From the IMG/VR virus record IMGVR_UViG_3300035670_000085, positions 1 to 64,000 of that record: DNA of 64,000 bases; one strand, given 5' to 3'. The DNA is from a virus. The notes beneath the pieces are model-generated. The model saw only the letters and a list, made by a program, of their open reading frames with translations, ran no database searches and had not been told where the DNA came from. How positions within the stretch are numbered: position 1 is the first letter of the stretch; each line of letters opens with the position of its first letter. The position numbers and the translations under genes were made by a program. Positions 2,490 to 54,649 of the stretch are shown piece by piece.

Positions 2490-2492
2490 TTT

Positions 2493-7848: not shown

Positions 7849-8047
7849 AGAAGAATTTTTTAATTTTGATTTAGCGAGTATTTTTTCAAAAGAACAAATT
7901 GATATATTGATCGAAATGGCAGAATTGAAAGGACAAACTATAGATGAATTTTGTAATAATATTTTGAAAAAATATATAGATAATAATAAAAAAATTGAAG
8001 TTGATATGAATAAAATGGGAAAATTTCATATTGGAAAAGAACAATGA
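7826..8047 (+). CDS. Small hypothetical protein in recA operon
   Basis: 73 aa from ATG 7826, chosen over ATG 7820 because AGGAG (7815-7819) is then 6 bases away. Mainly helical, with the segment IFSKEQIDILIEMAELKGQT that could be a small DNA-binding or dimerisation fold (ribbon-helix-helix-like spacing). It overlaps recA at its start and the nucleotidyltransferase at its end. Not recognised. Confidence 0.6.
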   Translation: MSKKQKNKEEFFNFDLASIFSKEQIDILIEMAELKGQTIDEFCNNILKKYIDNNKKIEVDMNKMGKFHIGKEQ

Positions 8048-11945: not shown

Positions 11946-11951
11946 TATTAT

Positions 11952-37916: not shown

Positions 37917-37945
37917 TAGAATAGTTTTATAATATGGTGGCAAAT

Positions 37946-39564: not shown

Positions 39565-39849
39565 ATGAAACGTTATAAATCATTATTAGAAGATGATAAA
39601 AATAAACGATTTGCTTTACTTCTTTCTGATATGAAACATAGTCGTGGTTCATTTAAATATTTTGATACTGAAAAAGAAGCAGTTGATTTTGTTAAGAAAC
39701 TACACAGCCAAAATAAACTTATGAGATATGTAGAAATAGAATTGCTTGATAGAAGTATTAAAGATTATCAAAGTCCTAAATATAGTAGAGTATTGTGGGA
39801 TGGATTACATAATGAATTATATGTTAGAGGATATTTGGAGAGAATATAA
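39565..39849 (+). CDS. Tagged protein 1 of the capsid-targeting cluster
   Basis: 94 aa, starts MKRYKSLLEDD, with Glu at position 9. The remainder (FALLLSDMKHSRGSFKYFD, then EKEAVDFVKKLHSQNK) is a small alpha/beta domain, not recognised. First member of the run of tagged genes and directly follows the membrane gene. Confidence 0.7.
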   Translation: MKRYKSLLEDDKNKRFALLLSDMKHSRGSFKYFDTEKEAVDFVKKLHSQNKLMRYVEIELLDRSIKDYQSPKYSRVLWDGLHNELYVRGYLERI

Positions 39850-39868
39850 TAAATAAGAGGTTATCGTC

Positions 39869-40009
39869 ATGGGTAAAAATCCTTCAGAAGCAAATAAAAA
39901 AGAAACTCCTAAATGGAAAACAACTATAGTTATTTCTCATTATATAAAACCTAATGGGGCATGGGGAAAAAGAACTACAGAAATACGTGAAGAGGTTATT
40001 AAAAAATGA
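39869..40009 (+). CDS. Small untagged protein within the tagged cluster
   Basis: 46 aa, MGKNPSEANKKETPKWKTTI at the N-terminus, ending REEVIKK. AAGAGG before the ATG; ATGA overlap with the next tagged gene. Basic. Not recognised. Confidence 0.55.
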   Translation: MGKNPSEANKKETPKWKTTIVISHYIKPNGAWGKRTTEIREEVIKK

Positions 40010-40509
40010 GACGATATAAACCGCTGTTTGAAAAAGTTGATTTAGAAAAAAAAGATTATCATGTTAGAGAATGGGATGAAGATTCTCGTGATACATGGGA
40101 ATATCTTCTTTCTAAATATGAAAACTGGGATCAAGCTAATAAAGATGGTATGGGAAGTCTTTATAATACTTTAGAAAAAAGTTTTATAAGTAATGGTGAT
40201 GTTGCAAAGGAATTACTAAAATCTAATAGACAAAATAAAAATTATTTAAATGTTGGTGATGTTCTTTATTTTAAATATATAAACGCTTCAATAATGGGAA
40301 GAAATCCTTTGGATAATAAAGGTATAAAAGAGTTTAAAAAAAATGCATATGTAATTGTGACAGAAGTGAATTTAGAATCTAAAGTTTATGGGTTTAATAA
40401 AAGCAATAAAAACAAAACAATATTAGGAAATACTTTTTATTATAAAATAAGCGATATAAATGAGTTATTAGAAAAACGAGAAGGAAAATCAATAGAAGTA
40501 ATTTATTAA
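40006..40509 (+). CDS. Tagged protein 2
   Basis: 167 aa, starts MRRYKPLFEKVD. After the tag comes a charged helical segment, then a beta-rich part (LNVGDVLYFKYINASIMG, KNAYVIVTEVNLESKVYGF). No family recognised. Both flanks are within 4 bases of neighbours. Confidence 0.7.
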   Translation: MRRYKPLFEKVDLEKKDYHVREWDEDSRDTWEYLLSKYENWDQANKDGMGSLYNTLEKSFISNGDVAKELLKSNRQNKNYLNVGDVLYFKYINASIMGRNPLDNKGIKEFKKNAYVIVTEVNLESKVYGFNKSNKNKTILGNTFYYKISDINELLEKREGKSIEVIY

Positions 40510-40511
40510 TT

Positions 40512-40811
40512 ATGAAACGTTATAAAAAATTATTTGAATCACAAACTTATCATTCAATAGCTTACAGAGATATTGAAAATACAAGATATAAATCTATAAA
40601 ACCATATAGAGAATATCTTATTATTACTTCTGAAAGTAAAATAGAAAAAGATGGAAATATGATTTGTTATGATAACATTAAATTATATACTAAAGAAAAT
40701 TATGCATCTAAAAAAATATCTAACAAAATGATTTTAGTTGATGTAAAAAATATGTGCATTGATATTAAAAGAGACCATTGGATATTTAAAAATGAGGATA
40801 TAAATATATGA
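40512..40811 (+). CDS. Tagged protein 3
   Basis: 99 aa, starts MKRYKKLFESQTYHS. The body is a small beta-rich domain (YREYLIITSESKIEKDGNMI). Ends in a 4-base overlap. Not recognised. Confidence 0.7.
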   Translation: MKRYKKLFESQTYHSIAYRDIENTRYKSIKPYREYLIITSESKIEKDGNMICYDNIKLYTKENYASKKISNKMILVDVKNMCIDIKRDHWIFKNEDINI

Positions 40812-41239
40812 AACGGTATAAACCCTTACTTAGAGAGGAAAATTCACTATCGCAATTAGATAAACCAGAATTAGTAGATAAATTATTTCAATATTTTAAA
40901 GAGAATCCGTATCCACTTGACCACGAAGGATTCCATAAATTTGCTGAATCTCTTGGTATGGAAGCAGATGATTTAGAAATCTATGGTTGGGCAATTATTA
41001 GCTGTTTTGTTACTGGTGGAAATTTTAATAAGTCTGGTAAGAAAGAAGAAGATTTTGATTCTAAAGAAATTGAGATTGGAATTGATATTGAAAAAGAGCA
41101 TACCGACTATACTAATGAAAATCCTGTTGTAAAACGTATTGCAAATTTTATGCAAAAAAGAATTGCAAAAGATCATCTTTCAGAATTTTCAAATTATTAT
41201 ACTTTGTTAAAAGAAATGGAAAAAAATGCAAAAAAATAA
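40808..41239 (+). CDS. Tagged protein 4, DUF5661 family
   Basis: 143 aa, starts MKRYKPLLREEN. From residue 30 it follows the DUF5661 pattern: PYPLDHEGFHKFAESLGM, IGIDIEKEHTDYT and KDHLSEFSNYYTLLKEME. The E-H-T and D-H-L motifs suggest a helical metal-binding or DNA-binding fold; the function of the family is unknown. This shows the tag is fused to recognisable, separate protein families. Confidence 0.75.
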   Translation: MKRYKPLLREENSLSQLDKPELVDKLFQYFKENPYPLDHEGFHKFAESLGMEADDLEIYGWAIISCFVTGGNFNKSGKKEEDFDSKEIEIGIDIEKEHTDYTNENPVVKRIANFMQKRIAKDHLSEFSNYYTLLKEMEKNAKK

Positions 41240-41246
41240 TAATATA

Positions 41247-41260
41247 TACTAATAAATATA
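41247..41260 (+). promoter_or_regulatory. Late-type promoter motif inside the tagged cluster
   Basis: TACTAATAAATATA, exact copy, 26 bases before ATG 41287; AAAGAGG lies between. Confidence 0.65.
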
Positions 41261-41286
41261 TAACAATAAAAAAGAGGTAATTGATC

Positions 41287-41604
41287 ATGTATAGAAGTGT
41301 ATTTGAAGAAAGCAATGGTAAAAGAAAAATGAATGAAGCTGTAGTATTTTCTATTAGCACAATAGACGATGCTTTTGAAGCTATTCAAAAATGTGTTGCA
41401 TTGATAATTGAAAAGAAAAAATCCAGCATGGCTATGATGCTTCCTAGAATAGCTGAAGCAGTAATGAACGGAATTAAAGATGCACTTGGAAATATCTATA
41501 GTGATCCTAACAAAATTGAATCTGTTAAAAAACAAATAGTAGCTAAATTTATTCGTTTCTTTAAACAAGATGCAGTTAGTGCTCCAGAAGAACCAATGAT
41601 GTAG
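41287..41604 (+). CDS. Tagged protein 5 (shortened tag)
   Basis: 105 aa from ATG 41287 (GAGG upstream; the in-frame TTG at 41281 is not needed). It starts MYRSVFEESNGK, the tag lacking the leading KR. The rest is helical (VFSISTIDDAFEAIQKCVAL, MAMMLPRIAEAVMNGIKDAL) with an acidic-proline tail. Preceded by a late promoter. Not recognised. Confidence 0.65.
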   Translation: MYRSVFEESNGKRKMNEAVVFSISTIDDAFEAIQKCVALIIEKKKSSMAMMLPRIAEAVMNGIKDALGNIYSDPNKIESVKKQIVAKFIRFFKQDAVSAPEEPMM

Positions 41605-41612
41605 TATTAAGT

Positions 41613-41882
41613 ATGAAACGATACATTAGTATTTTTAAAGAATCTGGAACTGGTAATTACGCACCAAGTAGCATTCTTTTTAAAACAGATGAAGAGTTTA
41701 ATAGGGCAGTGGAATTGTTAAGTTCTCTTAATTTTCAATTTAAACCAGATTTCTATATAAGAAAAAATGGTAATATTTCTGGGTATAGTAAAAATTATTT
41801 AAGTTTTACATACTCTAAAGATTGGACTAAACTTGTTAAACTTCTTCAAAAAAATAATGTAGATTTCAAACAAATAAAATGA
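41613..41882 (+). CDS. Tagged protein 6
   Basis: 89 aa, starts MKRYISIFKESGTG. A small alpha/beta domain follows (EEFNRAVELLSSLNFQF, KDWTKLVKLLQKNNVDFK). ATGA overlap with the 33-aa gene. Not recognised. Confidence 0.7.
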   Translation: MKRYISIFKESGTGNYAPSSILFKTDEEFNRAVELLSSLNFQFKPDFYIRKNGNISGYSKNYLSFTYSKDWTKLVKLLQKNNVDFKQIK

Positions 41883-41980
41883 GGCGATACAAACCATTAT
41901 TTGAATATATGACTCCTTCCGAAAGGAAAGGAGCTTTTCTACATGGTCAAACTAATTTAGGAAAGATGGTAATGAAATGA
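41879..41980 (+). CDS. Tagged micropeptide, 33 aa
   Basis: Starts MRRYKPLFEYMTPSERKG and ends GKMVMK. ATGA overlaps with both neighbours (41879-41882 and 41977-41980) show it is a real translated link. After removal of the tag only about 24 residues remain, so it may be a decayed member or a packaged peptide. Confidence 0.6.
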   Translation: MRRYKPLFEYMTPSERKGAFLHGQTNLGKMVMK

Positions 41981-42216
41981 AAAGATACAAAAGTATATTT
42001 AAAGAATCAAAAGAAGATGTTATAAAACGAGCATTAAATTTTGCAGATTCTGGCTCATTTCCTGTTAATAGAAAAGTATTTCGTTTTATGATGTATTTAA
42101 ATGATGAACAATTTGATATTGAAGAAATTAAGCAATTAGCATGTGAATTCTATAAAATACATAGAAGTAAAGTAGAAGGAATATTTAAAGAAGTTGAAAG
42201 ATTAGAAAAAATATGA
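41977..42216 (+). CDS. Tagged protein 7
   Basis: 79 aa, starts MKRYKSIFKESKED. All-helical remainder (VIKRALNFADSGSF, EEIKQLACEFYKIHRSKVEG). ATGA overlaps on both sides. Not recognised. Confidence 0.7.
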   Translation: MKRYKSIFKESKEDVIKRALNFADSGSFPVNRKVFRFMMYLNDEQFDIEEIKQLACEFYKIHRSKVEGIFKEVERLEKI

Positions 42217-42884
42217 AAAGATACAAACAACTTTTTAAAGAAGATCATGAACATTGGATAGATATAAAATTTTCTGATATAGAAAAGTTGGAAGAAGAAC
42301 TTCATCTTGCAGATTTTAAAAAACATGCTGGTGCTTCTGATTTTACAAAAGATTGGATAGAAATAAGACGTAAGATAAAAGGACCAGGAAACAAATCAGC
42401 TAAATTACATTCACTAAAGGTAAATCGTAAGGACGATTACGTTATTTTTGTATTTAAATCATCACCAACATATTCCGGATTAGAAAAATCAGTCAATGTT
42501 AAATCTATGACATGGAATGGAAAAGTTAAAGCTTATACCGAAATGATAAAAATAAATGACTTCTTCAAATTGGCAGAAACTAAACCAGGATATGTTGAAA
42601 AAGAAATGACTTGGAAAGAAATAAAAGAAATTCTTTCTGTTGCGCCGATTTCGGTCTCCTGCAATTGCGGAAGTTTCACCTATCAAGGATTGTCTTATTA
42701 TTTGACACAATTAGAGGGAACAATTTTTCCAAATAATATAGAACCGAAGCGATGGAATAAATACCATGATAAAGGAAATGATATAGGATTGCTTTGTAAA
42801 CATTTATCAATGATTTTTAATAGCATAGATTTCTTTTTATCTAACTTTACAAGTATGATAAATAAATATATTCAGGGTAAATAA
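42213..42884 (+). CDS. Tagged protein 8 with SWIM-like zinc motif
   Basis: 223 aa, starts MKRYKQLFKEDHEH. The C-terminal half has SVSCNCGSFTYQGLSYYLT and GLLCKHLSMIFNSIDFF: C-x-C followed by C-x-H, the SWIM-type zinc ligand set, which in other proteins binds DNA or protein. The N-terminal half contains a strand-rich ELADFKKHAGASDFTKDWI region. Function unknown; packaging with DNA would suit a nucleic-acid binding role. Confidence 0.7.
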   Translation: MKRYKQLFKEDHEHWIDIKFSDIEKLEEELHLADFKKHAGASDFTKDWIEIRRKIKGPGNKSAKLHSLKVNRKDDYVIFVFKSSPTYSGLEKSVNVKSMTWNGKVKAYTEMIKINDFFKLAETKPGYVEKEMTWKEIKEILSVAPISVSCNCGSFTYQGLSYYLTQLEGTIFPNNIEPKRWNKYHDKGNDIGLLCKHLSMIFNSIDFFLSNFTSMINKYIQGK

Positions 42885-42885
42885 C

Positions 42886-43386
42886 ATGCCTTCACGGTCA
42901 GAGAGACAAAGAAATTTCATCTTTGCTAAACGCGGAGAATACAAAACCAAATCAGATACTCCAGAAGATTGGAAATGGGTGTGGAATGATGAATGGGAAA
43001 AAATAGAGGAGAGGTTTCCAATAAAACGATATAAACCATTGTTTGAATCAAATAAAATTATCTATTTTATCCGTGCAACAGATAAACAAGAAGTACAAAG
43101 TAAACATTATGGAGATTACTGGAGATTCTTCAAGTCCTTAAAAGATTTATCTAATTTAATAAAATCAAATCAATTATATGTTGCTCAAAAAGATAAAAAT
43201 GATCAATATATGATAATAGGACAAGGAAATATAGACGAACTTGAATTAAATTATTCTGAATTAAACGATGACTTTGATTCAAAAGAGATGCATTTTAAAT
43301 TCAAAGACTTATTCGATAAAAATTATACACCTTCCTCTAAAGTTCTTTATGCTGGAAAAATTGATTACGATTTAAAATTAAAATAA
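42886..43386 (+). CDS. Protein with internal capsid tag after an N-terminal extension
   Basis: 166 aa. Residues 1-44 are MPSRSERQRNFIFAKRG-type, a short basic motif seen in other phage proteins, followed by EDWKWVWNDEWEKIEE. Residues 46-55 are IKRYKPLFES, the tag without Met. DNA just before it reads AGAGGAGAGG (43005-43014), a strong ribosome site 6 bases before ATA at 43021. The C-terminal part (YFIRATDKQEVQSKHYGDYW) is a separate domain. It looks like a fusion of two genes, or a start codon changed from ATG to ATA. Confidence 0.65.
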   Translation: MPSRSERQRNFIFAKRGEYKTKSDTPEDWKWVWNDEWEKIEERFPIKRYKPLFESNKIIYFIRATDKQEVQSKHYGDYWRFFKSLKDLSNLIKSNQLYVAQKDKNDQYMIIGQGNIDELELNYSELNDDFDSKEMHFKFKDLFDKNYTPSSKVLYAGKIDYDLKLK

Positions 43387-43387
43387 T

Positions 43388-44536
43388 ATGAAAAGATATA
43401 AACCATTATTTAAAGAATCTATTCAATCAGAAAAAGCTATAGCAGAATTAGTTGATTTCGTTATAGATAAATTATCTAATAATATGATGAAAAAAATAAA
43501 TAATGGTGATTTTATTCCAGAAAAAAGATTTAATTTAAGAATGAGTTTTGATGAAAATAAATATTCAAATCCACCAGAAATATTAAAAGAATTTGTTAAT
43601 TTATTTTTATATGAATTTGATGTTATATTATCAAGTGATAAAGATAAAGCAAATGGTGTATATCAAAGTAAAAAAAATAGAATAGTATTATGGAATGTAT
43701 TATTTCCAAATACATGGACTAAAGATAATCCTCATTTTGAAGGAAAAAAAGAAATTAAAGATTATTTCAGAAGATATTCTAGAGGTACTCTAATTCATGA
43801 GTTTGCCCATGCTTATGACGATTTTATAAGTCGTGGAAAATATTTACCTAAAAAATATAAAGATGCCCCAGAAAGTCATGAAGACGAGAAGGGATGGAAA
43901 GATTACGCAAAACAAAATTTAGAAGTCAATGCAAGATATACTGATTGGATAAATGAACATCAAAAAGAAAGAATTACTTACACTTGGCCAGAATATGTAA
44001 AAGAATTTAAACAAGAATGGGGGATTAAATACTTAAATCCGGAACAATATCGAAGACTTATAAATAGACTATTTGCTCAATATAATGAACCACTACCAGA
44101 AGATTTTAAACTAGAAGTTTTAAATAGTTTATCCTTTAAATTATTTCATAAAGGATTTGAGAATAAGTTAAATGTTAATGATTTTATTCCAGAAGATAAA
44201 AGATGGAAAGATCAACTGACCAAAAAAGATATTTTTAATTATATGAAAAAATCTATACAGAATATTTTAACTGGAAAAGTTAAAGAATCTGAGATAAAAA
44301 ATCCAGCAATAATTGATAATAGATATGCTGGTTTAAAATCTATAAAATATAGTTTTGAATTGATTGATTCTATGGAAGAAAATCTTAAAAAACATGCAGA
44401 CAATCCAGATATTGTTAAAACAATTCAAAAACAAATTGATAAAGAATTAGCATATTATGAAGGATTTAAAAGAATATTTAAATTATCTGATGAAGATTTA
44501 AAACAGATTAATGATGTTATGATAAAATATTCATAA
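43388..44536 (+). CDS. Tagged HExxH zinc metalloprotease
   Basis: 382 aa, starts MKRYKPLFKESIQS. Around residue 135 is GTLIHEFAHAYDDFISRG (HExxH in a helix) and about 30 residues later NLEVNARYTDWI, a possible Glu ligand. The C-terminal 200 residues are mostly helical. It is the largest tagged protein. If the tag directs it into the head, it would be carried in the virion and could act at the start of infection or in head maturation; no substrate is evident. Starts 1 base after the previous stop. Confidence 0.7.
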   Translation: MKRYKPLFKESIQSEKAIAELVDFVIDKLSNNMMKKINNGDFIPEKRFNLRMSFDENKYSNPPEILKEFVNLFLYEFDVILSSDKDKANGVYQSKKNRIVLWNVLFPNTWTKDNPHFEGKKEIKDYFRRYSRGTLIHEFAHAYDDFISRGKYLPKKYKDAPESHEDEKGWKDYAKQNLEVNARYTDWINEHQKERITYTWPEYVKEFKQEWGIKYLNPEQYRRLINRLFAQYNEPLPEDFKLEVLNSLSFKLFHKGFENKLNVNDFIPEDKRWKDQLTKKDIFNYMKKSIQNILTGKVKESEIKNPAIIDNRYAGLKSIKYSFELIDSMEENLKKHADNPDIVKTIQKQIDKELAYYEGFKRIFKLSDEDLKQINDVMIKYS

Positions 44537-44559
44537 TTTCTATTATATTGAAGAAATTA

Positions 44560-44573
44560 TACTAATAAATATA
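44560..44573 (+). promoter_or_regulatory. Late-type promoter motif inside the tagged cluster
   Basis: TACTAATAAATATA, exact copy, only 12 bases before ATG 44586, so a transcript from it would have a very short leader, or the motif mainly serves the genes beyond. Confidence 0.6.
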
Positions 44574-44585
44574 AAGGTAATAAAT

Positions 44586-44837
44586 ATGAAAAGGTATAAG
44601 CCATTATTCGAATCCTCTCAAAGATTTTGTGCAATATATAAAGCACAAAATAATAAATGGTACCTAGCTCTTGCTGACGAAGAATACGGTACATCAGAAG
44701 ATGCCACTACTTACGGACCTTTTTCTAGTAAAGAGCAAGCTCATAGGTATTTGTTGAGAAATTTTTCAAATCCTGGTGGAATAATTGAGGATGGTTCTGG
44801 AGAACATTCAGTACCTCCCAGTGTTGTTAAGCCTTAG
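44586..44837 (+). CDS. Tagged protein 9
   Basis: 83 aa, starts MKRYKPLFESSQRF. The body has KWYLALADEEYGTSEDATTY, GPFSSKEQAHRYLLRNFSN and a Gly/Pro-rich tail, the look of a small conserved phage domain with a tail exposed to solvent. Family not named. AAGG upstream. Confidence 0.7.
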   Translation: MKRYKPLFESSQRFCAIYKAQNNKWYLALADEEYGTSEDATTYGPFSSKEQAHRYLLRNFSNPGGIIEDGSGEHSVPPSVVKP

Positions 44838-44877
44838 ATCTACATAGACAATTCAAAAATAGAATAGGTATGTAATT

Positions 44878-45231
44878 ATGATATGTGAACTAATTTCTTT
44901 CAGTGCAGCAGAACTCAATACAGGAATAGATGTTATAAAAGATATAGAATTTATTTCTATAGTTAAAAATGATGCAGAAGCGCTTCCAAAAGTATATAGA
45001 CCAATTGAGATACGCTTTTCAAATGTAAGCGGTATTGCAGCAAATATTGATATTTTTTCTGATATCGAACATGCTGCTTATCTAACAACTCCAACTTTAT
45101 CTGATAAAATAACTATAGCTAATGGCGGTACATTGACATTAACCCCAACTAAAGATGCTATTACTAAAATAGTTGCTAAAGGTACAGCAGGACATTCTGG
45201 AAATTTAAATATTACAATAATAAAAGAGTAG
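44878..45231 (+). CDS. Untagged beta-rich protein, paralogue of 46906
   Basis: 117 aa, beginning MICELISFSAAELNTG. Beta-rich with repeated strands (PIEIRFSNVSGIAANI, ITKIVAKGTAGHSG). Shares start context, FSDxE, TPTxxD and the final (I/E)I-K-E with the gene at 46906. No tag. A virion surface or decoration role is possible but not shown. Confidence 0.6.
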   Translation: MICELISFSAAELNTGIDVIKDIEFISIVKNDAEALPKVYRPIEIRFSNVSGIAANIDIFSDIEHAAYLTTPTLSDKITIANGGTLTLTPTKDAITKIVAKGTAGHSGNLNITIIKE

Positions 45232-45240
45232 GTGTAAAAA

Positions 45241-45537
45241 ATGAAAAGGTACAAAAGCTTATTTAAAGAAGATTCTACAGAATTTAATAATGATGATTTT
45301 GTTTATCAAGAATTAAAATTTAAAAAACAATTATCAAAAGAATTGAAATTACCTTATACTGGAAAATGGGCAAATCAAAATAAAGAACTTCCAATTTATT
45401 TTGATGATGCAGATATGGTGTCAATGTTAGATGATAAAACTATTTTTAAAAATGCTATAAATGGTAAGCATACATATGGAGAATTAAAAACATTTGTTAT
45501 AAACTTTATGAAAAAAAACACTCCTAATCTTATTTAA
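45241..45537 (+). CDS. Tagged protein 10
   Basis: 98 aa, starts MKRYKSLFKEDSTE. Charged helical domain (YQELKFKKQLSKELKLPYTG) with an acidic middle (YFDDADMVSMLDDK). AGGTG upstream. Not recognised. Confidence 0.7.
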   Translation: MKRYKSLFKEDSTEFNNDDFVYQELKFKKQLSKELKLPYTGKWANQNKELPIYFDDADMVSMLDDKTIFKNAINGKHTYGELKTFVINFMKKNTPNLI

Positions 45538-45552
45538 TAGAGGTAAAAAAAA

Positions 45553-45834
45553 ATGAAAAGATATAAAAGTGTTATTAGTAAAAATGAAATAAAATTAAAT
45601 GAATCTAAGTGGAGTGATGCTAATCTAAGCAGGTTCTTTTTTAGTGGTGAATATGATAATTATCAGCATGGGAATCCAAAGAAAGCAGCGCAGCAAATTT
45701 ATGATCTCACTGTTAATTATTTAGATAATATTGAAAAGAATCTAGAATTGGCAGGTTCATTTTTAGCACCAGCCATAAAAGATGAACTTGAAAAAATGTT
45801 AAAAAAGAATTTTAGTAGAATAAAAATAAAATGA
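45553..45834 (+). CDS. Tagged protein 11 (diverged tag)
   Basis: 93 aa, starts MKRYKSVISKNEIKLNES. The usual LFKE is replaced by VISKNE, and a second site IKLNE follows, so cleavage may be shifted. The rest is helical (NPKKAAQQIYDLTVNYLDNI). AGAGG upstream; 4-base overlap with the next gene. Confidence 0.65.
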   Translation: MKRYKSVISKNEIKLNESKWSDANLSRFFFSGEYDNYQHGNPKKAAQQIYDLTVNYLDNIEKNLELAGSFLAPAIKDELEKMLKKNFSRIKIK

Positions 45835-46139
45835 AAAAATATAAATCATTATTTAAAGAATCTGAACAAAAAGCTAGTTACGATTTGGTAGCAAATCTTT
45901 ATAAAAAGGGTTCAAAATGGAGAACTATAGAGTGGGCAAATAATAATGATAAAGCAATAATATCTAATCTATCTCCAACTCTTTTAAAAAAAGGAGAGAA
46001 TTGTAATATTGAGATGATGAAAGGTTCTTCTCAATTTAATCTCATAATTTCATGGAAAAACTCTAGCAATGTCATATTAGGATGCTCACTTTCTTTTGAT
46101 AATGAAAAAGAAGCACAGAAAGAAGGGTGGAGTATATGA
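45831..46139 (+). CDS. Tagged protein 12
   Basis: 102 aa, starts MKKYKSLFKESEQK. Body: ASYDLVANLYKKGSKWRTIE then a beta-rich C-terminal half (SQFNLIISWKNSSNVILGCS). ATGA overlaps on both sides. Not recognised. Confidence 0.7.
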   Translation: MKKYKSLFKESEQKASYDLVANLYKKGSKWRTIEWANNNDKAIISNLSPTLLKKGENCNIEMMKGSSQFNLIISWKNSSNVILGCSLSFDNEKEAQKEGWSI

Positions 46140-46363
46140 AGCGTTATACACCAATAAAACTACAAGAACAAGATGAAGAAGAATTACATCCACGAGTTCT
46201 TGAAATACTCGATTGTTTCAAAAACGAAGATTTTAATAATTTTTCAAAACGTCTTGATTTTGCATCAAAGCTACTTGAAATTATAGTATTATCAAAGGAT
46301 GTTCGTATAAGAAGACTCATAAAGAAAATCTGTCAGGCAATAAAAGAAATAGAGGAGGAATAA
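46136..46363 (+). CDS. Tagged protein 13 (variant tag)
   Basis: 75 aa from ATG 46136 in the ATGA overlap; the in-frame ATG at 46127 lies within the previous gene. Starts MKRYTPIKLQEQDEEE; LQE is an L-x-E cleavage-type site one residue later than usual. Helical remainder (RVLEILDCFKNEDFNNFSKR). Confidence 0.65.
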   Translation: MKRYTPIKLQEQDEEELHPRVLEILDCFKNEDFNNFSKRLDFASKLLEIIVLSKDVRIRRLIKKICQAIKEIEEE

Positions 46364-46365
46364 AA

Positions 46366-46608
46366 ATGAAAAGATATAAGAGTATTTTAAAAGAAGCACA
46401 ACCAATTCATATCGGAAAAGTTACTGTTTTTGTTCATTTGAAAATCAAAGAAGAAGAAGTAAGTAAGATTATAGATCTATTTGATAATATAGATAGCGAT
46501 CAAAAAATTCAAAATTTTCAATATTTAGCTGGAAATATGAAACTTAAAAATTTAGCAAAATTTATTGATAATAAAAATATTTATCTTTTAAGAATTTCAG
46601 AGGAATAA
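46366..46608 (+). CDS. Tagged protein 14
   Basis: 80 aa, starts MKRYKSILKEAQPI. Small alpha/beta domain (GKVTVFVHLKIKEEEVSKII). Adjacent to and similar in size and start to the next gene. Not recognised. Confidence 0.7.
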   Translation: MKRYKSILKEAQPIHIGKVTVFVHLKIKEEEVSKIIDLFDNIDSDQKIQNFQYLAGNMKLKNLAKFIDNKNIYLLRISEE

Positions 46609-46610
46609 AA

Positions 46611-46859
46611 ATGAAAAGATATAAAAGCATTATTAAAGAAGCTGAATTTTCAAAAGGAAACATCCAGGCAATAATTGCCGCATTTAAAGAATGTGGATTT
46701 AAAGTTGAAGGGAAAGAAGGCGAACAGAAAGAAGGAATTTTTTATGCTTCTTTTGAGAAAGGAAAAGAAATTCTCTCTATAGAGGATGCTATAGAAAACT
46801 TACAAGCATTAAAAAAAAACGATAGAAAAAACACAGGATATAGATTTGAAATAGTATAG
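46611..46859 (+). CDS. Tagged protein 15
   Basis: 82 aa, starts MKRYKSIIKEAEFS. Body: GNIQAIIAAFKECGFKVEGK then DAIENLQALKKNDRK, an alpha/beta fold reminiscent of small DNA-binding or regulatory domains. Not recognised. Confidence 0.7.
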   Translation: MKRYKSIIKEAEFSKGNIQAIIAAFKECGFKVEGKEGEQKEGIFYASFEKGKEILSIEDAIENLQALKKNDRKNTGYRFEIV

Positions 46860-46905
46860 CACGACAATCCAATCAGATTTGATATATCCGACTGAGAGAG
46901 TAATT

Positions 46906-47253
46906 ATGATAACTGAAAAAATTGCAATAGTTAACGCAGACCTCGTAGCGGGAAAAGCGGTTAAAACAATAGAAGATATATCTTTAACTAGATTAGATGC
47001 ACAAGCTTCATCGAAACAATATATTCCTATCAAAATAAAATGTACTAATAACACTAATGTTTCTGGCAATTTTATTGCATTTTCTGATATGGAATATATA
47101 CAATATATAGCAACACCAACAATTACTGATTTAGTTCCTTTAGCAATCGGTGAATCGTTTGAATATATTCCAACAAATCAAAAAATGACAACTATTGTGG
47201 TCGAGTCTGCTGTTTTTACTGGAACCTATGATATAGAAATTTGGAAAGAATAA
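46906..47253 (+). CDS. Untagged beta-rich protein, paralogue of 44878
   Basis: 115 aa from ATG 46906 (GAGAGAG upstream); the in-frame ATG at 46879 has a worse site. Begins MITEKIAIVNADLVAG. Beta-rich with YIPIKIKCTNNTNVSG and FSDMEYIQYIATPTITD, aligned throughout with the protein at 44878. Its first 27 bases are nearly repeated at 47506. Confidence 0.6.
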   Translation: MITEKIAIVNADLVAGKAVKTIEDISLTRLDAQASSKQYIPIKIKCTNNTNVSGNFIAFSDMEYIQYIATPTITDLVPLAIGESFEYIPTNQKMTTIVVESAVFTGTYDIEIWKE

Positions 47254-47272
47254 ATTTTGAAGTTTAAATAAA

Positions 47273-47503
47273 ATGAAAAGGTACAAGAGTGTTATTAAGG
47301 AATCTGGGGATAATTATGAGAATTTTGGCATCTCCTTATCAAAAATGTATAGTAAATCGACAAATATGACGCAATTAGCCAATATGATTTCAAATAGTAT
47401 TGGAGAAGAGATCGGAGATAGCGAGGATTTAATAAAGGTATCTAAAACTCTTATTGGTAATTTACAAGACCTTATAAATGATGCAAAATCTTCAAGAGAA
47501 TAA
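47273..47503 (+). CDS. Tagged protein 16
   Basis: 76 aa, starts MKRYKSVIKESGDN. Helical remainder (SKMYSKSTNMTQLANMISNS, DLIKVSKTLIGNLQDLIND). Not recognised. Confidence 0.7.
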   Translation: MKRYKSVIKESGDNYENFGISLSKMYSKSTNMTQLANMISNSIGEEIGDSEDLIKVSKTLIGNLQDLINDAKSSRE

Positions 47504-47505
47504 AT

Positions 47506-47667
47506 ATGATAATTGAAAAAATTGCAATAGTTAGCTTTGAGAGCGACCCAAAAACGTATAGTGAAATGCGTAAGCTTGTGGACGAACATTTCTCCGAAAA
47601 GGGTGGAGGTTGGTCTAGCGGTTTTAGGAATTTTATAAAATACGTAAGGGGAGAGGAAGTATATTAA
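47506..47667 (+). CDS. Small gene with copied start region, possible partial duplication
   Basis: 53 aa. The first 30 bases differ from those of the 46906 gene at only a few positions (MIIEKIAIVS against MITEKIAIVN), then the sequences are unrelated: FESDPKTYSEMRKLVDEHFS, GGGWSSGFRNFIKYVRG. Codons such as CTT, GTG, GGT and AGG give it a visibly higher GC content than its neighbours. It may be a recombinant chimera carrying foreign sequence. The 79 bases after it hold no supported gene. Confidence 0.5.
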   Translation: MIIEKIAIVSFESDPKTYSEMRKLVDEHFSEKGGGWSSGFRNFIKYVRGEEVY

Positions 47668-47746
47668 AAAAAGCGGAAACGACAACTATGAAAAATAGGA
47701 AAGAGTGCGTATAAAAAAATTTTAAACAACGAGGAAGGGAAATAAG

Positions 47747-48112
47747 ATGAAAAGATACAAATCAATTTTAAACGAAGAATCACAATTTTCTAAAAATTTA
47801 CATAAGTATTTAAGACATTATGATAATCTTGAAACTTATAGCGAGTTAATTAAATTAATAAAAACTATAAATTATAATAAAAAAATAGAAACAGATGAAG
47901 CAAAACAAAATGTTTATAAAGCTGTAATTTTATTGCTTCTTGGATATACTGGTTCAGAAGTGAGTAATAAACGTGATTATCTTTCTAAAGAATGGGAGAA
48001 AGAGGAAGAAAGTAAGAACGAAACTCCAGATGAATTTATGAAAAGAATGAAAATGGTGCCTTATAAAGAAAATTTGTCATGCAATAAAAGAAATGGAGGA
48101 GGAATAAAATGA
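47747..48112 (+). CDS. Tagged protein 17
   Basis: 121 aa, starts MKRYKSILNEESQF. Helical (KYLRHYDNLETYSELIKLIK) with a charged C-terminal segment (WEKEEESKNETPDEFMKRMK). ACGAGGAAGGG upstream; 4-base overlap with the next gene. Not recognised. Confidence 0.7.
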   Translation: MKRYKSILNEESQFSKNLHKYLRHYDNLETYSELIKLIKTINYNKKIETDEAKQNVYKAVILLLLGYTGSEVSNKRDYLSKEWEKEEESKNETPDEFMKRMKMVPYKENLSCNKRNGGGIK

Positions 48113-48420
48113 AACGATATAGAAGTATTTTTAAAGAAGAAAAAAATTTACCTAATATGGATATTGATTCTTTTGTTAAAGAATTAATGAAAAATAGAAA
48201 TTTAAAAGATACTTTTAAATCGTATACTATTGATGAATCTTATGAAAATCCAGATGGAGATTTTAATTCTGTTATTTATTTAGAAGATTTTATAACTGAA
48301 AGACCAAGTTATGATTTTGTGAATCATTTACGCAGGATTGTTAATAAAAATGAAGATATTATTGATAGTAATATTGGTCGGGACAAATATAGAGTTGTTT
48401 TAAATATAACCCATAAATAA
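48109..48420 (+). CDS. Tagged protein 18
   Basis: 103 aa, starts MKRYRSIFKEEKNL. The body (DIDSFVKELMKNRNLKDTF, then ITERPSYDFVNHLRRIVNKN) is an alpha/beta domain of unknown type. The preceding GGAGG lies in the previous gene. Confidence 0.7.
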   Translation: MKRYRSIFKEEKNLPNMDIDSFVKELMKNRNLKDTFKSYTIDESYENPDGDFNSVIYLEDFITERPSYDFVNHLRRIVNKNEDIIDSNIGRDKYRVVLNITHK

Positions 48421-48435
48421 AAAGGTGGAAATAAA

Positions 48436-48639
48436 ATGAAACGATACAAATCGATACTTAAAGAAGGAATGAGATACAATACTAGCTATTTTGAAGCAGG
48501 AAAAGATTTAAGATCAGCAAAAAAAATAGATACTGTAATTGGTGTTTTAGAAGAAATGATTATGGAATTAAAAGCTTGGAAAAAAGAAGGAGCTAAAGAA
48601 GTTCAAGGAAATAAAAATGAATTTATTCCATTATGGTAA
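48436..48639 (+). CDS. Tagged protein 19
   Basis: 67 aa, starts MKRYKSILKEGMRY. Helical (GKDLRSAKKIDTVIGVLEEM). Last tagged gene before the prohead protease-scaffold gene, 18 bases upstream of it. AGGTGG precedes the ATG. Confidence 0.7.
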   Translation: MKRYKSILKEGMRYNTSYFEAGKDLRSAKKIDTVIGVLEEMIMELKAWKKEGAKEVQGNKNEFIPLW

Positions 48640-48657
48640 TAGTGTAGGTAAAAGAAA

Positions 48658-50724
48658 ATGGCTAAAATAAAATTAGTTGAAAAGATAGGAATTAATGTTC
48701 CTATTGAAAATATAAAAGTTTTTGATAAAGTAAAGATAGTAGAAGCTGCCGGAAAGAATTACGAGGCTATAGCAGTAATTGAGAAAGTACCTTTTACTAG
48801 ATTTGGCAGTGTTAATGATAACAATAGATATTATCCACGTAAACTTTGGGAAAAAGTTATAAAAGAAGGAGTATGTGAAGGAAGCTCTCTTTATACAAAC
48901 CATGCAGAAAATGAAACAGATGTATCTAAAAAAGCAGGTATCTGGCATAATGCATTTATTGACGATAAGAATAAAGTATGCAGAGCAGATCTTTATCTTA
49001 TAGGACCAAACGGACAACTCTTTCTCGATGCTTTAAAAGCTGGTTCAAAAGGGGAGGGTATCAGTTCAGTTGGCTACGGTGAGTTTGAAGATAGATACGA
49101 AGAATTAAAAGAATTTGGTAATATAGGACATGATGTAAAAGTAGTACGATGGGACACGTATGATGGAGAGTCTTATGGCGACTGGGTACATCAGCCGTCT
49201 CAAAACGTATTTGCAACATTAGAAAATATTAAAGAAAATAATGAAAACTCTTCTAATTTAAATGAAAGTTATACTAATAATAGTAAAGCTACTAATGATA
49301 AATTAGATGAAAATATAAAATTACAAGAGAATAAAAAAGAGGTTTATATGGATAAGTCGATATTGAAGAATATGGTATTGAATGAAATAAAACGTTCAAA
49401 AAATAATCCTAATCTTCTTGAAGCAATTCAAGGATTGAAAGAGATTGACACTGCTGGTGATTCTGAACTTAATAATAGAGTAAATGATGCAATTGAAACT
49501 CTCACAACTAAACTTGAAGAAAGTAAAAGTAATGCAGAAAAACAGCTCAATGAAAGCACAACTAAATTGAATGAAATGACTGCTAAATATAATAAACTTG
49601 TTGAGAATTATAAAAAAGCTACTTCTAAAGTTGTAGAATTGACAGAATCAACAAAACTTATGGAATCCGATATTAAATGCTTGGTAGAAGATTCTAATCT
49701 CCGTGATAATGATATTAAATGTCTTACAGAAGACCGTAAAGTTATGATATCCGATCTTAAAAAAATGATTGAAGATCGTAAAGCAATGAGAAAAGATATT
49801 AATGTTCTTACTACTAAATTGAAAGAAGCTGAAGAAGTTATTGGTCAACAAGAAGATGAACTTGAAAAACGTGGATTTGAATTTGAAGAAGATGATGAAG
49901 AAGTAGAATTTGATGCGGAAGGAAATCCTATAGTAAAAGAGCCTGTAACAGAAGAAGAAATGCCTGCACCTGAAGTGCTTCCAGAAACCCCGGCAGAAAT
50001 AAAAGAAGAAGGTGACGAACAAGAACTTCCTATGCAAATCGATCCTCTTCCAACTGAACCTGCAATGGTTGAAGAAGAAGATGAAATGATGAATCTTGAT
50101 TTTGAAGATGAAGAAGAAGTTGAAGAACTTGAAGAAGAAGATGCTTTTGATGCATTTGCTCCTGCAGGTGAAGAAATGGATGAGCCTATGGTAGAAGAAG
50201 ATGAGATGGAAATGCCTGTTGAGGAAATGCCAGTTGAAGAAGCTCCGGCAGAAGAAGTGAAAGAAGAAGAAATGCCTGCACCTGAAACTCTTGACACTCC
50301 TCCTGCACCGGCTCCTGCTCCTATAGCCATAGAAGAACCTAAACCAGAAGAAACTAAAATGGTTGAGGAAGACGAAGAAGAAAAAGAAGATGAAGAAGAA
50401 GTTGAAGAACCAGAAGAAGAAAAAGAAGAAATGAAAGAATCTGTAATTAAGTTTTCATGGGAACCAAAAAAAGAAGTTAAAAAAGCTCCTGTAAAAACTA
50501 AAATCGTAGAAAATAATATTAAGGCTGATCTTAAAAAATTCTATGAAAGTCAGATTGCAAAGAATCCTTCTGTAAAAGCTATTGAAAAACAAATCATGTC
50601 TGCTAAATCTTTGTTAGAGGCCTTTGATATGGTTGATGTATTCAAGAGCAGAAAGTCAGATAAACTTGTGAAAGTTACTGAAAGTAAAAAATCTGATGGT
50701 AATGTGATAAAATTTAAATTCTAA
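48658..50724 (+). CDS. Prohead protease (gp21-like) fused to acidic scaffold
   Basis: 688 aa. Residues about 1-200 follow the T4 gp21-type serine protease: AIAVIEKVPFTRFGSVNDNN, RYYPRKLW, LYTNHAENETDVSKKAG (His), VCRADLYLIGPNGQ, GEGISSVGYGEF (nucleophile Ser region). From residue 231 it is a coiled coil, then a long Glu/Pro-rich low-complexity region (about 410-600) and a basic tail, as expected of a core scaffold. In T4, protease (21) and scaffold (22) are separate genes. An internal in-frame start at 49348 would give the scaffold alone. The protease is the expected processor of the tagged proteins upstream. Confidence 0.8.
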   Translation: MAKIKLVEKIGINVPIENIKVFDKVKIVEAAGKNYEAIAVIEKVPFTRFGSVNDNNRYYPRKLWEKVIKEGVCEGSSLYTNHAENETDVSKKAGIWHNAFIDDKNKVCRADLYLIGPNGQLFLDALKAGSKGEGISSVGYGEFEDRYEELKEFGNIGHDVKVVRWDTYDGESYGDWVHQPSQNVFATLENIKENNENSSNLNESYTNNSKATNDKLDENIKLQENKKEVYMDKSILKNMVLNEIKRSKNNPNLLEAIQGLKEIDTAGDSELNNRVNDAIETLTTKLEESKSNAEKQLNESTTKLNEMTAKYNKLVENYKKATSKVVELTESTKLMESDIKCLVEDSNLRDNDIKCLTEDRKVMISDLKKMIEDRKAMRKDINVLTTKLKEAEEVIGQQEDELEKRGFEFEEDDEEVEFDAEGNPIVKEPVTEEEMPAPEVLPETPAEIKEEGDEQELPMQIDPLPTEPAMVEEEDEMMNLDFEDEEEVEELEEEDAFDAFAPAGEEMDEPMVEEDEMEMPVEEMPVEEAPAEEVKEEEMPAPETLDTPPAPAPAPIAIEEPKPEETKMVEEDEEEKEDEEEVEEPEEEKEEMKESVIKFSWEPKKEVKKAPVKTKIVENNIKADLKKFYESQIAKNPSVKAIEKQIMSAKSLLEAFDMVDVFKSRKSDKLVKVTESKKSDGNVIKFKF
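49337..49350 (+). promoter_or_regulatory. Internal ribosome site and ATG for nested scaffold protein
   Basis: AAGAGG, 5 bases, then ATG at 49348, in frame within the protease-scaffold gene (codon 231). It is as good as the SD sites of separate genes here. The nested product would be 458 aa and begin MDKSILKNMVLNEIKRS, right at the start of the coiled-coil region, as in phage lambda C/Nu3. Confidence 0.65.
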
Positions 50725-50735
50725 TAAAAAATAAA

Positions 50736-50764
50736 CTCAAAGGAGGAATTCAAACTCCTTTGAG
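50736..50764 (+). terminator. Hairpin after the protease-scaffold gene
   Basis: CTCAAAGGAG pairs with CTCCTTTGAG (10 bp) around a 9-base loop. Only ATTTCTTT follows, so termination may be partial, letting some transcripts continue into the next tagged gene. Confidence 0.55.
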
Positions 50765-50785
50765 ATTTCTTTAAAGATAATAAAA

Positions 50786-51001
50786 ATGAAACGATATAAA
50801 TCATTATTCAAAGAAGAATTTCCTCTTAATTACAAACAAGGAATGTTTCTTAAAAACATTATAGAGGAATATCTTATAGATATTGGAAAAGAAGAAAAAA
50901 GAAAAGAAGCGTTTACTATAATTTTACATGCAATATCTAACCATAAACTTGATTTTGATAAAGATAAAATTTTATTGTTTTTACAGAAAAAATATAATTA
51001 A
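50786..51001 (+). CDS. Tagged protein 20
   Basis: 71 aa, starts MKRYKSLFKEEFPL. Helical, basic C-terminus (KDKILLFLQKKYN). It lies between the protease-scaffold and major capsid genes, the position of further head genes in T4-like phages. Not recognised. Confidence 0.7.
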   Translation: MKRYKSLFKEEFPLNYKQGMFLKNIIEEYLIDIGKEEKRKEAFTIILHAISNHKLDFDKDKILLFLQKKYN

Positions 51002-51024
51002 AAAATTCATTTTTAAATAATTTA

Positions 51025-51038
51025 TACTAATAAATATA
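51025..51038 (+). promoter_or_regulatory. Late-type promoter motif of the major capsid gene
   Basis: TACTAATAAATATA, exact copy, 168 bases before the capsid start, giving the capsid message a long leader. Confidence 0.7.
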
Positions 51039-51051
51039 AGTTGAAGATATT

Positions 51052-51149
51052 CTATCAAAAGATAGTTTGTATAAAAAAGACGATTCAAAAGAATCAAATG
51101 CAATAGTAGTTCTCAAAAGAGATCATTAATAGTGCCTTTCAGAAGAAAG
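51052..51149 (+). repeat. Array of similar small hairpins in the capsid mRNA leader
   Basis: Four short inverted repeats share the loop-closing pattern C-(A/G)AA-G: CTATC-AAAA-GATAG (51052-51065), GATTC-AAAA-GAATC (51082-51095), TCTC-AAAA-GAGA (51111-51122) and CTTTC-AGAA-GAAAG (51136-51149). A fifth half-copy, TTTCAAAAGAGG (51191-51202), overlaps the ribosome site. Spacing is about 25-30 bases. The 205-base region has no gene. A protein-binding or stabilising role is inferred. Confidence 0.6.
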
Positions 51150-51206
51150 ATGTTTCGATGTTCAATTAAAATTTAAAATTAAGAAAATAATTTCAAAAGA
51201 GGAAAT

Positions 51207-52715
51207 ATGAGTAATCAAATGAAACTCCAAGAGGAGTTAAAAGAGCGTAACGAACGCTTGAATAAAATAACTGAAAACTGGATGAGGACTGAATTTACAA
51301 AAGGCGATGTAATTCCTAAAACTGGAAAAACTTATCGTTCCATGCTTCAAGAAGTTGCAGCAAGGAATCCTCATCATGCAAGATGTATCGCTGCTGCAGC
51401 TCAGCAAGAATACAACCACATGAAAAAAAGTAAAATGAATGAAACTACGATTTCTACTGCTCTTCAAACGCACCCGGAAAACGTAATAAAAGTAATCATG
51501 CTTGGTATGGCTAATTCAATTCGTCCTATGGCATTCGTAGAATGGCCAATGACAACTATTGATGATGCTATGTATTGGGTAGATCGTACATATGAACAAT
51601 CAATTCGTGGCGCAACTGCTAACGATCTGATTTATTACAGCTTGAATGGAAGGTATGCTGGGGAATCTAAAGAAGAAACAGATGCAACTGTAACTTCATG
51701 TCTCCCGAACGTACCGAATAGCGCAACTCAAAACTTTACGTTGACCCTTACTCTCAATCCTATTATCATGAAAAAAACGTATATTACGTTGAATGATACT
51801 CTGATTGGTTATGACAGTCTTGGAACTGGTGTTATTACCCGTCCAGGGAATTCAACTGTATTGACAACCAATACAACTAATAATAATATCGATTATACGA
51901 ATGGTATTGTAAAACTTGGTTTTACTTCTGCTCCCGCAACTGGTGCTGTTATAAAAATAGCATATGAGTGGGATTCTGAAAATACAACTCTGTTTGCTGC
52001 AAATCAAGGAACAGTAAGTGTTAATCTTCGGAAAGATCGTTTTAATGCTCGTCCAATGCCGTTAGGATACAAATTCACGGATATGGCTGGCCTTACTCTT
52101 ATGTCAACTGGTCTTGGTGACATTCATGAAATGCTTATTTCTGCAGTAGCAGATGAGCATGCAAAAGCTCGGGATGCTCGTGCAATTCAGCTCGCATACC
52201 AACTCGCAAAAGTTAATGGTACTTATACATTTGATTGCGATTTCCGTGTAGCTGGTGAAGTTCAAGCGAAATCACACGTCCAGAAAGTTGTAGCAAAAAT
52301 AGATTCTATCGGTGGTTTGATTCAGGACGATATTAAAAAAGGTCAGATCAACGTAGCTATCGCTGGTTCACAAGCACTTTCTATTCTCCGGATGCATGAC
52401 AACTGGAAAGATGATAATTCAATGCCTCGTCAAGGATGCTATAAAGCAGGTTCTGTAAACGGTATTGATGTATTCTATGCACCTGCAACTACCGGAATTA
52501 TTGGAACAGAAGACATTATTCTTTCCTATAAAAACCCGCAAGAAAATGCAGACGTTGCTCTTGCTTTCGGTAACTTTACTGAAATCAGTGCAGAATTACG
52601 TTATCCAAATTTTACAACTGAAGGATCGTTGGCAACTGTTGAAGACGTGAAAATAATTGAGCCTAAGTTTCTCCGTCATCTTCAGCTTTCAAATACTTCG
52701 GCTGTTCTTTCCTAG
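51207..52715 (+). CDS. Major capsid protein (T4 gp23-like)
   Basis: 502 aa, AAGAGG before the ATG. The N-terminal 70-90 residues are charged and helical (MKLQEELKERNERLNKI), like the prohead-stage peptide that gp21 removes from gp23. Then NVIKVIMLGMANSIRPMAFV, TTIDDAMYWVDRTYEQS, GKYRxRF-type region replaced by YKFTDMAGLTLMSTGLGDIH, and KKGQINVAIAGSQALSILRM follow the gp23 HK97-like fold order. Codon use is richer in GC than its neighbours, as expected for the most expressed gene. It has its own late promoter and terminator. Confidence 0.85.
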   Translation: MSNQMKLQEELKERNERLNKITENWMRTEFTKGDVIPKTGKTYRSMLQEVAARNPHHARCIAAAAQQEYNHMKKSKMNETTISTALQTHPENVIKVIMLGMANSIRPMAFVEWPMTTIDDAMYWVDRTYEQSIRGATANDLIYYSLNGRYAGESKEETDATVTSCLPNVPNSATQNFTLTLTLNPIIMKKTYITLNDTLIGYDSLGTGVITRPGNSTVLTTNTTNNNIDYTNGIVKLGFTSAPATGAVIKIAYEWDSENTTLFAANQGTVSVNLRKDRFNARPMPLGYKFTDMAGLTLMSTGLGDIHEMLISAVADEHAKARDARAIQLAYQLAKVNGTYTFDCDFRVAGEVQAKSHVQKVVAKIDSIGGLIQDDIKKGQINVAIAGSQALSILRMHDNWKDDNSMPRQGCYKAGSVNGIDVFYAPATTGIIGTEDIILSYKNPQENADVALAFGNFTEISAELRYPNFTTEGSLATVEDVKIIEPKFLRHLQLSNTSAVLS

Positions 52716-54610: not shown

Positions 54611-54649
54611 ATATATAATATACAAAATATCTAGAAAAAATTAACAACT
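54609..54649 (-). promoter_or_regulatory. Early-type promoter candidate
   Basis: Minus strand: GTTGTTAA, spacer, then TATTTTGTATATTATATATATG. The -10-like TATATTATA almost touches the ATG, so the transcript could be leaderless or start further up. Confidence 0.4.

Follow-up and report, generated by a model that had tools for sequence, protein, structure and literature searches.

Few phage genes have a known function, and the proteins that enter the cell together with the DNA are known for very few phages. A 64,000-nucleotide stretch of a viral genome (the window; positions 1 to 64,000 of the 99,896-bp record IMGVR_UViG_3300035670_000085) raises the question of why more than twenty proteins with unrelated bodies begin with the same ten residues. 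The original prediction was that the decapeptide targets proteins to the capsid for injection.

A common N-terminus on unrelated proteins

M(K/R)(K/R)Y followed by the remainder of the tag forms the start of 21 open reading frames (ORFs) between 39565 and 51001, including a 33-residue ORF at 41879 and the variant MKRYTPIKLQE at 46136. Another ORF has the variant start MYRSVFEE (41287), and in yet another the tag is internal but in frame (43024, FPIKRYKPLFES). The expected number of about 22 genes was thus borne out, but the interval was drawn too narrowly, as at least seven tagged genes lie elsewhere. Tag starts occur in the record at 8044, 26258, 77383, 92089, 98671, 99018 and 99500, the last in a gene truncated by the contig end. 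The ORF starting at 60418 on the minus strand is likely a divergent case (59882–60418, MVTRYEPLFPIKE↓Y, with ↓ marking the predicted cut here and below), and its orthologue in the uncultured phage G004 has MKRYEPHKFEE. This brings the tagged genes outside the cluster to seven or eight.

All cluster genes lie on the plus strand. The first are 39565–39849 (MKRYKSLLE↓D, 94 aa), 40006–40509 (MRRYKPLFE↓K, 167 aa), 40512–40811 (MKRYKKLFE↓S, 99 aa) and 40808–41239 (MKRYKPLLRE↓E), the last probably a DUF5661 member with tagged orthologues in the related phages G006, G010 and G011. The variant MYRSVFEE↓S belongs to 41287–41604 (longest ORF from 41281), which has a remote G011 relative starting MKKYK. 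There follow 41613–41882 (MKRYISIFKE↓S, 89 aa), the short ORF 41879–41980 (MRRYKPLFE↓Y, 33 aa), 41977–42216 (MKRYKSIFKE↓S, 79 aa) and 42213–42884 (MKRYKQLFKE↓D), the last from a cargo family whose relatives occur in every one of the six phages compared, with a structure predicted at low confidence (pLDDT 35). In 42886–43386 a module of about 45 aa precedes the internal tag FPIKRYKPLFE↓SN and the body. By eye, 43388–44536 (MKRYKPLFKE↓S, 382 aa) contains an HExxH motif. Smaller products are encoded by 44586–44837 (MKRYKPLFE↓S, 83 aa), 45241–45537 (MKRYKSLFKE↓D, 98 aa), 45553–45834 (MKRYKSVISKNEIKLNE↓S, with the site shifted to residue 17), 45831–46139 (MKKYKSLFKE↓S, 102 aa), 46136–46363 (MKRYTPIKLQE↓Q, 75 aa), 46366–46608 (MKRYKSILKE↓A, 80 aa), 46611–46859 (MKRYKSIIKE↓A, 82 aa), 47273–47503 (MKRYKSVIKE↓S, 76 aa), 47747–48112 (MKRYKSILNE↓E, 121 aa), 48109–48420 (MKRYRSIFKE↓E, 103 aa) and 48436–48639 (MKRYKSILKE↓G, 67 aa, with a tagged orthologue in the relative G001).

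MKRY was the most frequent N-terminal triple: 21 of the 160 genes of the record have it, whereas 40 column shuffles never gave more than 8. No excess over shuffled columns emerged when this test was run on 66 kb of T4, on 49 kb of Pelagibacter phage HTVC008M or on phage phiXF1. For position statistics we used the 27 tagged genes of at least 60 aa in the record, picked by M[KR][KR]Y alone and leaving out a signal-peptide-like ORF at 23335. Tyr4, part of the selection rule, is present in 27/27; residues 7 and 8 are each hydrophobic in 26/27, and Glu occupies position 9 or 10 in 25/27. In the two remaining genes the site lies further on (LNE↓S or LQE↓Q). Evidence for the Glu comes from this independent selection only, because Glu was part of the selection rule for the relatives' tag lists.

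The tagged genes are mostly small, clustered and co-oriented, an arrangement that would also suit a common N-terminus left behind by a recent gene duplication or a mobile DNA cassette, with no role in packaging. We regard such a relic as highly improbable. Synonymous codons in the tag vary to the extent expected from codon usage, with codon identity at or below expectation at most tag positions (Arg3, 0.30 observed versus 0.46 expected; Tyr4, 0.55 versus 0.80); Leu7 is the exception (0.66 versus 0.31). Among the cluster proteins of the record, BLAST detected no bodies related to one another. We therefore conclude that the tag is kept as protein, and on both counts the original prediction stood. 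In addition, the tag is still present in relatives at only ~40% capsid-protein identity, a distance over which a neutral relic would have been lost.

A search of related phage genomes, as originally proposed, yielded five uncultured-phage relatives (G001, G004, G006, G010 and G011), all of which have the same fused protease–capsid block and many tagged genes. The tag dialect differs per phage (for example, MKRYNPxK(Y/F)MKE in G010), and most cargo families are lineage-specific, differing between relatives in all-against-all BLAST. In-frame fusions retain the tag at the junction, as at 43024 in the window, at 42073 in G004 and in the tandem tags of G010. Apart from single chance matches, which made up most of the hits, a scan with the tag pattern gave one true relative and a few T4-like contigs of marine origin.

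The protease–scaffold and capsid genes

The cluster had been described as lying directly before separate protease, scaffold and capsid genes. It does adjoin a gp21-family prohead protease (48658–50724, plus strand, 688 aa), but one tagged gene (50786–51001, plus strand, MKRYKSLFKE↓E, 71 aa) lies between the protease–scaffold and capsid genes, and protease and scaffold are not two genes: the N-terminal protease part and an acidic scaffold-like region form a single ORF. A profile of the protease matched T4 gp21 (5jbl; E=1.2e-8), His82 and Ser136 are invariant in the protease alignment, and the phiXF1 homologue matched Pfam S77 (1.4e-14).

The major capsid protein (51207–52715, plus strand) has a predicted cleavage site at Glu79 (KMNE↓TTIS). 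A predicted [LIM]-x-E site precedes the capsid fold in 7/7 clade members aligned; the sites, just ahead of the conserved fold, read KMNE↓T, RLPE↓A, IMKE↓N, IIKE↓N, IMRE↓N and QMSE↓T, with RRLE↓A at the matching place in the phiXF1 capsid protein. A scan with the window sequence alone detected no relatives of the capsid protein; these were found once a profile of three sequences was used. The protein matched phrog_1014 (unknown) and, weakly, phrog_138, and was not recognisable as gp23 in the searches run. The capsid profile revealed no prophage or host link in bacterial genomes.

Two T4 internal proteins, read directly, begin MKTYQEFIAEA, in agreement with the original prediction for the first ten residues. 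Our tag agrees with this capsid-targeting sequence (CTS), MKTYQEFIAE, at Tyr4, hydrophobic 7, hydrophobic 8 and Glu10. Amber-suppressor work on the T4 IPIII tag assigned targeting to residues 4 and 7 and processing to residues 8 and 10 (PMC9026906). The likeness extends to IPI, IPII, IPIII and Alt of the Straboviridae as a group, which share a short N-terminal propeptide with Tyr or Phe at 4, hydrophobic residues at 7 and 8 and Glu at about 10. Propeptides of the T4 type have about 10–19 residues with an aromatic residue 4 and Glu before the cut, a pattern that the tags here follow in sequence. As in T4, a gp21-family protease is encoded in the genome and the bodies are unrelated, in keeping with the published view that related phages have different CTS cargoes. 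The decapeptide very probably serves as a capsid-targeting propeptide of the T4 internal-protein type, in a divergent clade where the system has grown considerably.

Tag exchange and the nature of the cargo

The gene at 26258–26848 (plus strand, MKRYKPLFE↓AEDYRG) has a body that is a widespread phage domain. In Vibrio phage VH7D (Schizotequatrovirus; AGB07088.1, annotated only as a hypothetical protein), a homologous body starts at the predicted cut and is preceded by the T4-type tag MKTYTEFLSE instead of MKRYKPLFE. It follows MKSFKTYLQE in L085 and MNFKQWMEN in L079, and in all three the body begins at the tag boundary. An AlphaFold model of the 26258 product has disordered residues 1–13 and then a confident body. 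This swap of a T4-type and an MKRYK tag on one body is the best evidence for the predicted capsid targeting; as the two tags exchange on the same body, it also suggests that phage lineages can swap their delivery signals. A YRAVP/Glu pattern had led us to suspect an ADP-ribosyltransferase; we dropped this claim because the confident model had no PDB match.

The swap also bears on whether the tag might send proteins elsewhere, to a host factor, a membrane or a phage nucleus-like compartment. A short sequence of basic and amphipathic character, such as this tag, could suit such a role; even so, its resemblance to the capsid-protein protease site and to the T4 targeting residues, and the T4-type tag on the same cargo in another phage, make another destination very unlikely. 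Independent comparative evidence, including the per-phage dialects and the tags retained at fusion junctions, strongly supports the targeting and the cleavage after Glu that had been predicted, while injection is a weaker deduction, drawn by analogy with T4 and from the occurrence of one cargo in polyvalent-type proteins.

Packaged and cleaved proteins could instead be prohead core or internal structural parts, like T4 gp67 and gp68, and never be ejected as effectors. With a net charge of −65 the 77383 product is extremely acidic, and it resembles a core component more than an effector; T4 IPIII influences head assembly (PMC9026906); and the G011 and G006 proteases themselves begin with tag-like sequences. 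Set against this, most cargo families differ between relatives in a way that structural parts do not, the 26258 body is found elsewhere as one module in large proteins of the polyvalent type, for which injection has been predicted (PMC5512222), and some bodies are enzyme-like. We therefore judge a purely structural role unlikely. The clearest functions among MKRYK-tagged proteins are SprT-like and nucleotidyltransferase-like, the latter at 8044–8619 (plus strand, MKRYQSQFME↓S, DUF2204, 191 aa, 62% identity to its G011 orthologue). Such bodies are not established injected effectors, which counts against the effector reading. PADLOC and NCBIfam searches of the cargo returned weak matches only. 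The 99018 product may be ART-like, on a weak BLAST match to a polyvalent-type protein (E=0.002, single comparison); it had no phage matches.

A proposed delivery system and its known counterparts

On the T4-like propeptide reading, the first half of the tag (Tyr4, hydrophobic 7) would bring the protein into the prohead scaffold core, presumably by binding the scaffold, and the second half (hydrophobic, any residue, Glu) would be cut by the gp21-like, scaffold-fused protease during head maturation. Sequence comparison makes packaging and cleavage a strong inference. The freed bodies would remain in the head among the DNA, would most probably exit with it at infection, and may then act early, against host defences or in takeover of host processes. 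Any gene acquiring the prefix would become cargo, which would explain some 30 unrelated tagged proteins in one genome.

The principle is most likely of a known kind, T4-type internal-protein packaging, and what is new is its several-fold expansion in an uncultured group: T4 has three internal proteins and Alt, compared with about 30 tagged genes here. The phage further differs from T4 in its MKRYK-type tag, its fused protease and scaffold and its uncultured clade. Straboviridae have a capsid protein of the gp23 type and encode gp21 and gp22 separately, features not found here. Phage phiXF1 of Xanthomonas has a homologous fused protease–scaffold and a capsid protein with 24% identity, but we found no common N-terminal tag in its genes. 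In phage P1, an N-terminal signal of DarB is enough to carry a reporter into the capsid, although the Dar N-termini have no common consensus (PMC9024508). SPN3US likewise packages many proteins, some with N-terminal propeptides cut by a gp21-related protease, but 42 of its head proteins are uncleaved, and the part of that report drawn on here describes no short common tag (PMC10052503). Phage polyvalent proteins are also predicted to be injected early (PMC5512222), and large multidomain proteins of this kind contain the 26258 domain; their domains are joined in one chain, whereas the tagged proteins here are encoded one by one.

We lean towards a broader view, in which delivery in this uncultured contractile-tailed clade works as an open platform. 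Any protein would become virion cargo on receiving a ten-residue prefix in the dialect of its phage, with some 20–30 or more different packaged proteins per phage. Cargoes would pass from one lineage to another and take on the tag of the recipient, and their domains would also serve as polyvalent modules in other phages. A tag that can be read from sequence would provide a likely virion cargo list for uncultured phages. In this genome it singles out about 30 proteins as candidates for anti-defence or takeover roles, and it would give the start of each mature protein.

Whereas the internal proteins of T4 have been called basic, some of the tagged proteins are acidic: the median pI is 8.0, with values below 7 in 13/28. 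The T4 late-promoter motif TATAAATA occurs 38 times in the window against 26 by chance, with no clear tie to the tag cluster. One point that counts against the T4-type reading is the residue behind the Glu, commonly D, E or K here, where T4 usually has a small one.

One tag on many unrelated proteins

Between 39565 and 51001, 21 ORFs start with M(K/R)(K/R)Y and the remainder of an amino-terminal decapeptide of the MKRYK(S/P) type (the tag); one more carries the variant MYRSVFEE and another holds the tag internally. Outside this cluster we found seven further tagged genes, starting at 8044, 26258, 77383, 92089, 98671, 99018 and 99500, and a likely eighth on the minus strand at 60418. The 99,896-bp viral record (GC content of 27% in the window, bases 1–64000) is probably a fragment, since the tagged gene at 99500 overruns its end, and the true total of tagged genes probably exceeds the present count. 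MKRY was the commonest amino-terminal residue triple in the record, starting 21 of 160 genes against no more than 8 in any of 40 shuffles; applied to T4 (66 kb), Pelagibacter phage HTVC008M (49 kb) and Xanthomonas phage phiXF1, this test gave no excess over shuffles. Synonymous codons at most tag positions varied between genes as much as codon usage predicts or more, the clear exception being Leu7 (mostly TTA), and BLAST detected no mutual similarity among the cluster bodies (tagged proteins minus the tag). We conclude that the shared tag is neither chance nor copied DNA; codon variation thus upholds the original prediction on the latter point, and the BLAST result bears out its claim that the bodies are unrelated.

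Correspondence with the T4 targeting sequence and head genes

In the ten-residue capsid-targeting sequence (CTS) of T4 IPIII, residues 4 and 7 serve capsid targeting and residues 8 and 10 processing (PMC9026906); two T4 internal proteins start MKTYQEFIAEA, as read off the genome. Among 27 tagged genes, picked by M[KR][KR]Y alone, residue 7 was hydrophobic in 26, residue 8 in 26, and Glu stood at position 9 or 10 in 25. The other two have a site further on, at residue 17 in 45553 (LNE↓S; ↓, predicted cut) and residue 11 in 46136 (LQE↓Q), resembling T4 propeptides, which span 10–19 residues (PMC9026906). At the level of sequence, the tag agrees with the T4 CTS at each of these functional positions.

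A fused prohead protease–scaffold gene and the major capsid gene occupy 48658–52715; the record also contains a terminase gene and a contractile tail sheath gene (93457–95631). A protease-domain profile from three phages matched the T4 prohead protease gp21 (5jbl, E = 1.2e-8); the phiXF1 homologue belongs clearly to Pfam S77, and the window protease by itself falls under the Pfam cut-off. Shortly before its conserved fold, each of the clade's capsid proteins carries an [LIM]-x-E site, with predicted cuts at KMNE↓TTIS in the window and RLPE↓AVIS, IMKE↓NLYS, IIKE↓NVYS, IIKE↓NLYS, IMRE↓NLYS and QMSE↓TTVA in relatives. The protease pro-region possibly holds further sites of this type (KIVE↓A in the window, LLIE↓S in relatives); in two relatives the protease itself has a tag-like start (MNKYKTLQE, MSRYRYLED). 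Homing-endonuclease-like genes are dispersed among the head and tail genes (window 25422–26255 and 52805–54625; 11323–12399 on phage contig L003).

Dialects, junctions and exchange of the tag

Relatives were found in IMG/VR using the tag pattern and a capsid profile, and five, from uncultured phages, were read piecewise. In all five, a fused protease–scaffold gene precedes the capsid gene and many genes are tagged, each phage having its own dialect: MKRYKS(L/V/I)(Y/I)KE in G001, MKRYKPFKFSE and MKRYKRFEE in G004, MKRYKRYFE and MERYKPFFE in G006, MKRYNPxK(Y/F)(M/I)KE in G010, and MERYKSFFRE and MNRYKPFFE in G011. Orthologous bodies retain the tag in different letters, as in the 92089 family (SIFQE↓AEEDK, PVYKIKE↓DAEEDK, TSIFAE↓ADEEA). 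Tags also lie at fusion junctions. A single G004 ORF reads tag–cargo–tag–cargo, the second tag being MKRYEPKFKVKE; G010 has a tandem pair of tags, TKYKPLFKEAYKMKLQRYVSVFKE, and another cargo behind an internal EYERLYES; and in window ORF 42886, KRYKPLFE separates two modules. Judged from these sequences, junction tags behave as expected of a processing site.

The 26258 body is a widespread phage domain found behind other tags. Vibrio phage VH7D, a member of the Straboviridae, has it behind MKTYTEFLSE, nearly the T4 CTS, and on two further contigs it follows MKSFKTYLQE (L085) and MNFKQWMEN (L079), where adjacent genes begin similarly. Elsewhere it is a module within proteins reaching a thousand residues or more. 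AlphaFold predicted the body of the 26258 product confidently and residues 1–13 as disordered; this structure had no match in the PDB, and its structural matches include a protein named for a large-polyvalent-protein-associated domain. For polyvalent proteins, injection along with the DNA has been predicted (PMC5512222). Contig L076 encodes a polyvalent-type protein of 1192 aa (1327–4902) in which an ART-like segment (GYDGVIL) is joined to the 26258 domain.

On three marine phage contigs akin to T4-like pelagiphages and methylophages (L005, L009, L034), several adjacent proteins begin MRSFKELIE, MKRFKTLLSE, MPSFKDLLE or MKRYKDLFE, probably another CTS-like cargo set. AAA-ATPase-like proteins of relatives also have tag-like starts (L039 8904–10391, L066 5467–6885; NTYLSIFKE, ALYESVFIQE) and are possibly a large packaged enzyme.

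Proposed packaging route and cargo

The sequence logic is what we observe; from it we infer a route in which the tag would bind the scaffold core, the capsid would assemble, the protease would cleave after Glu and the scaffold would be broken down, leaving the bodies with the DNA, to exit together with it. CTS-tagged internal proteins are already known, and a review points out that T4-like phages may package various proteins through the CTS (PMC9026906). Novel features are the number of cargoes (about 30 tagged genes in a single genome that is not complete), their occurrence in a divergent clade, the fusion of protease and scaffold, the dialects, the tags at junctions and the exchange of tags on one and the same body. 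A literature search, with subscription journals mostly outside its coverage, returned no paper on such an expanded tagged-cargo system.

Pfam matches among the cargo comprise a SprT-like protein, DUF5661 and, under the curated cut-off, the nucleotidyltransferase-like DUF2204. The 42213 family has relatives in all six phages, mostly tagged or with the tag at a junction, and the acidic 77383 product, with a net charge of −65, may belong to the prohead core. Many cargoes lack relatives in the other five phages; such lineage restriction would be expected of fast-changing counter-defence proteins. Among the T4 internal proteins, IPI inhibits a restriction enzyme, and IPIII aids in overcoming an unidentified defence (PMC3012670, PMC9391042).

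Immediately before the cluster, 37934–39046 encodes an untagged HExxH protein. It may be, on sequence grounds, a cargo whose tag was lost or moved, because parts of it have homologues among tagged or short-start proteins of G004 and G011 (MIRYKSYFEE, MERYKRKYDE, MKYRLIEVE). Untagged look-alike proteins of about 115–124 aa, possibly head decoration proteins, are encoded within the cluster, one of them also in G001 (window 44878–45231 and 46879–47253; L039 8325–8669).
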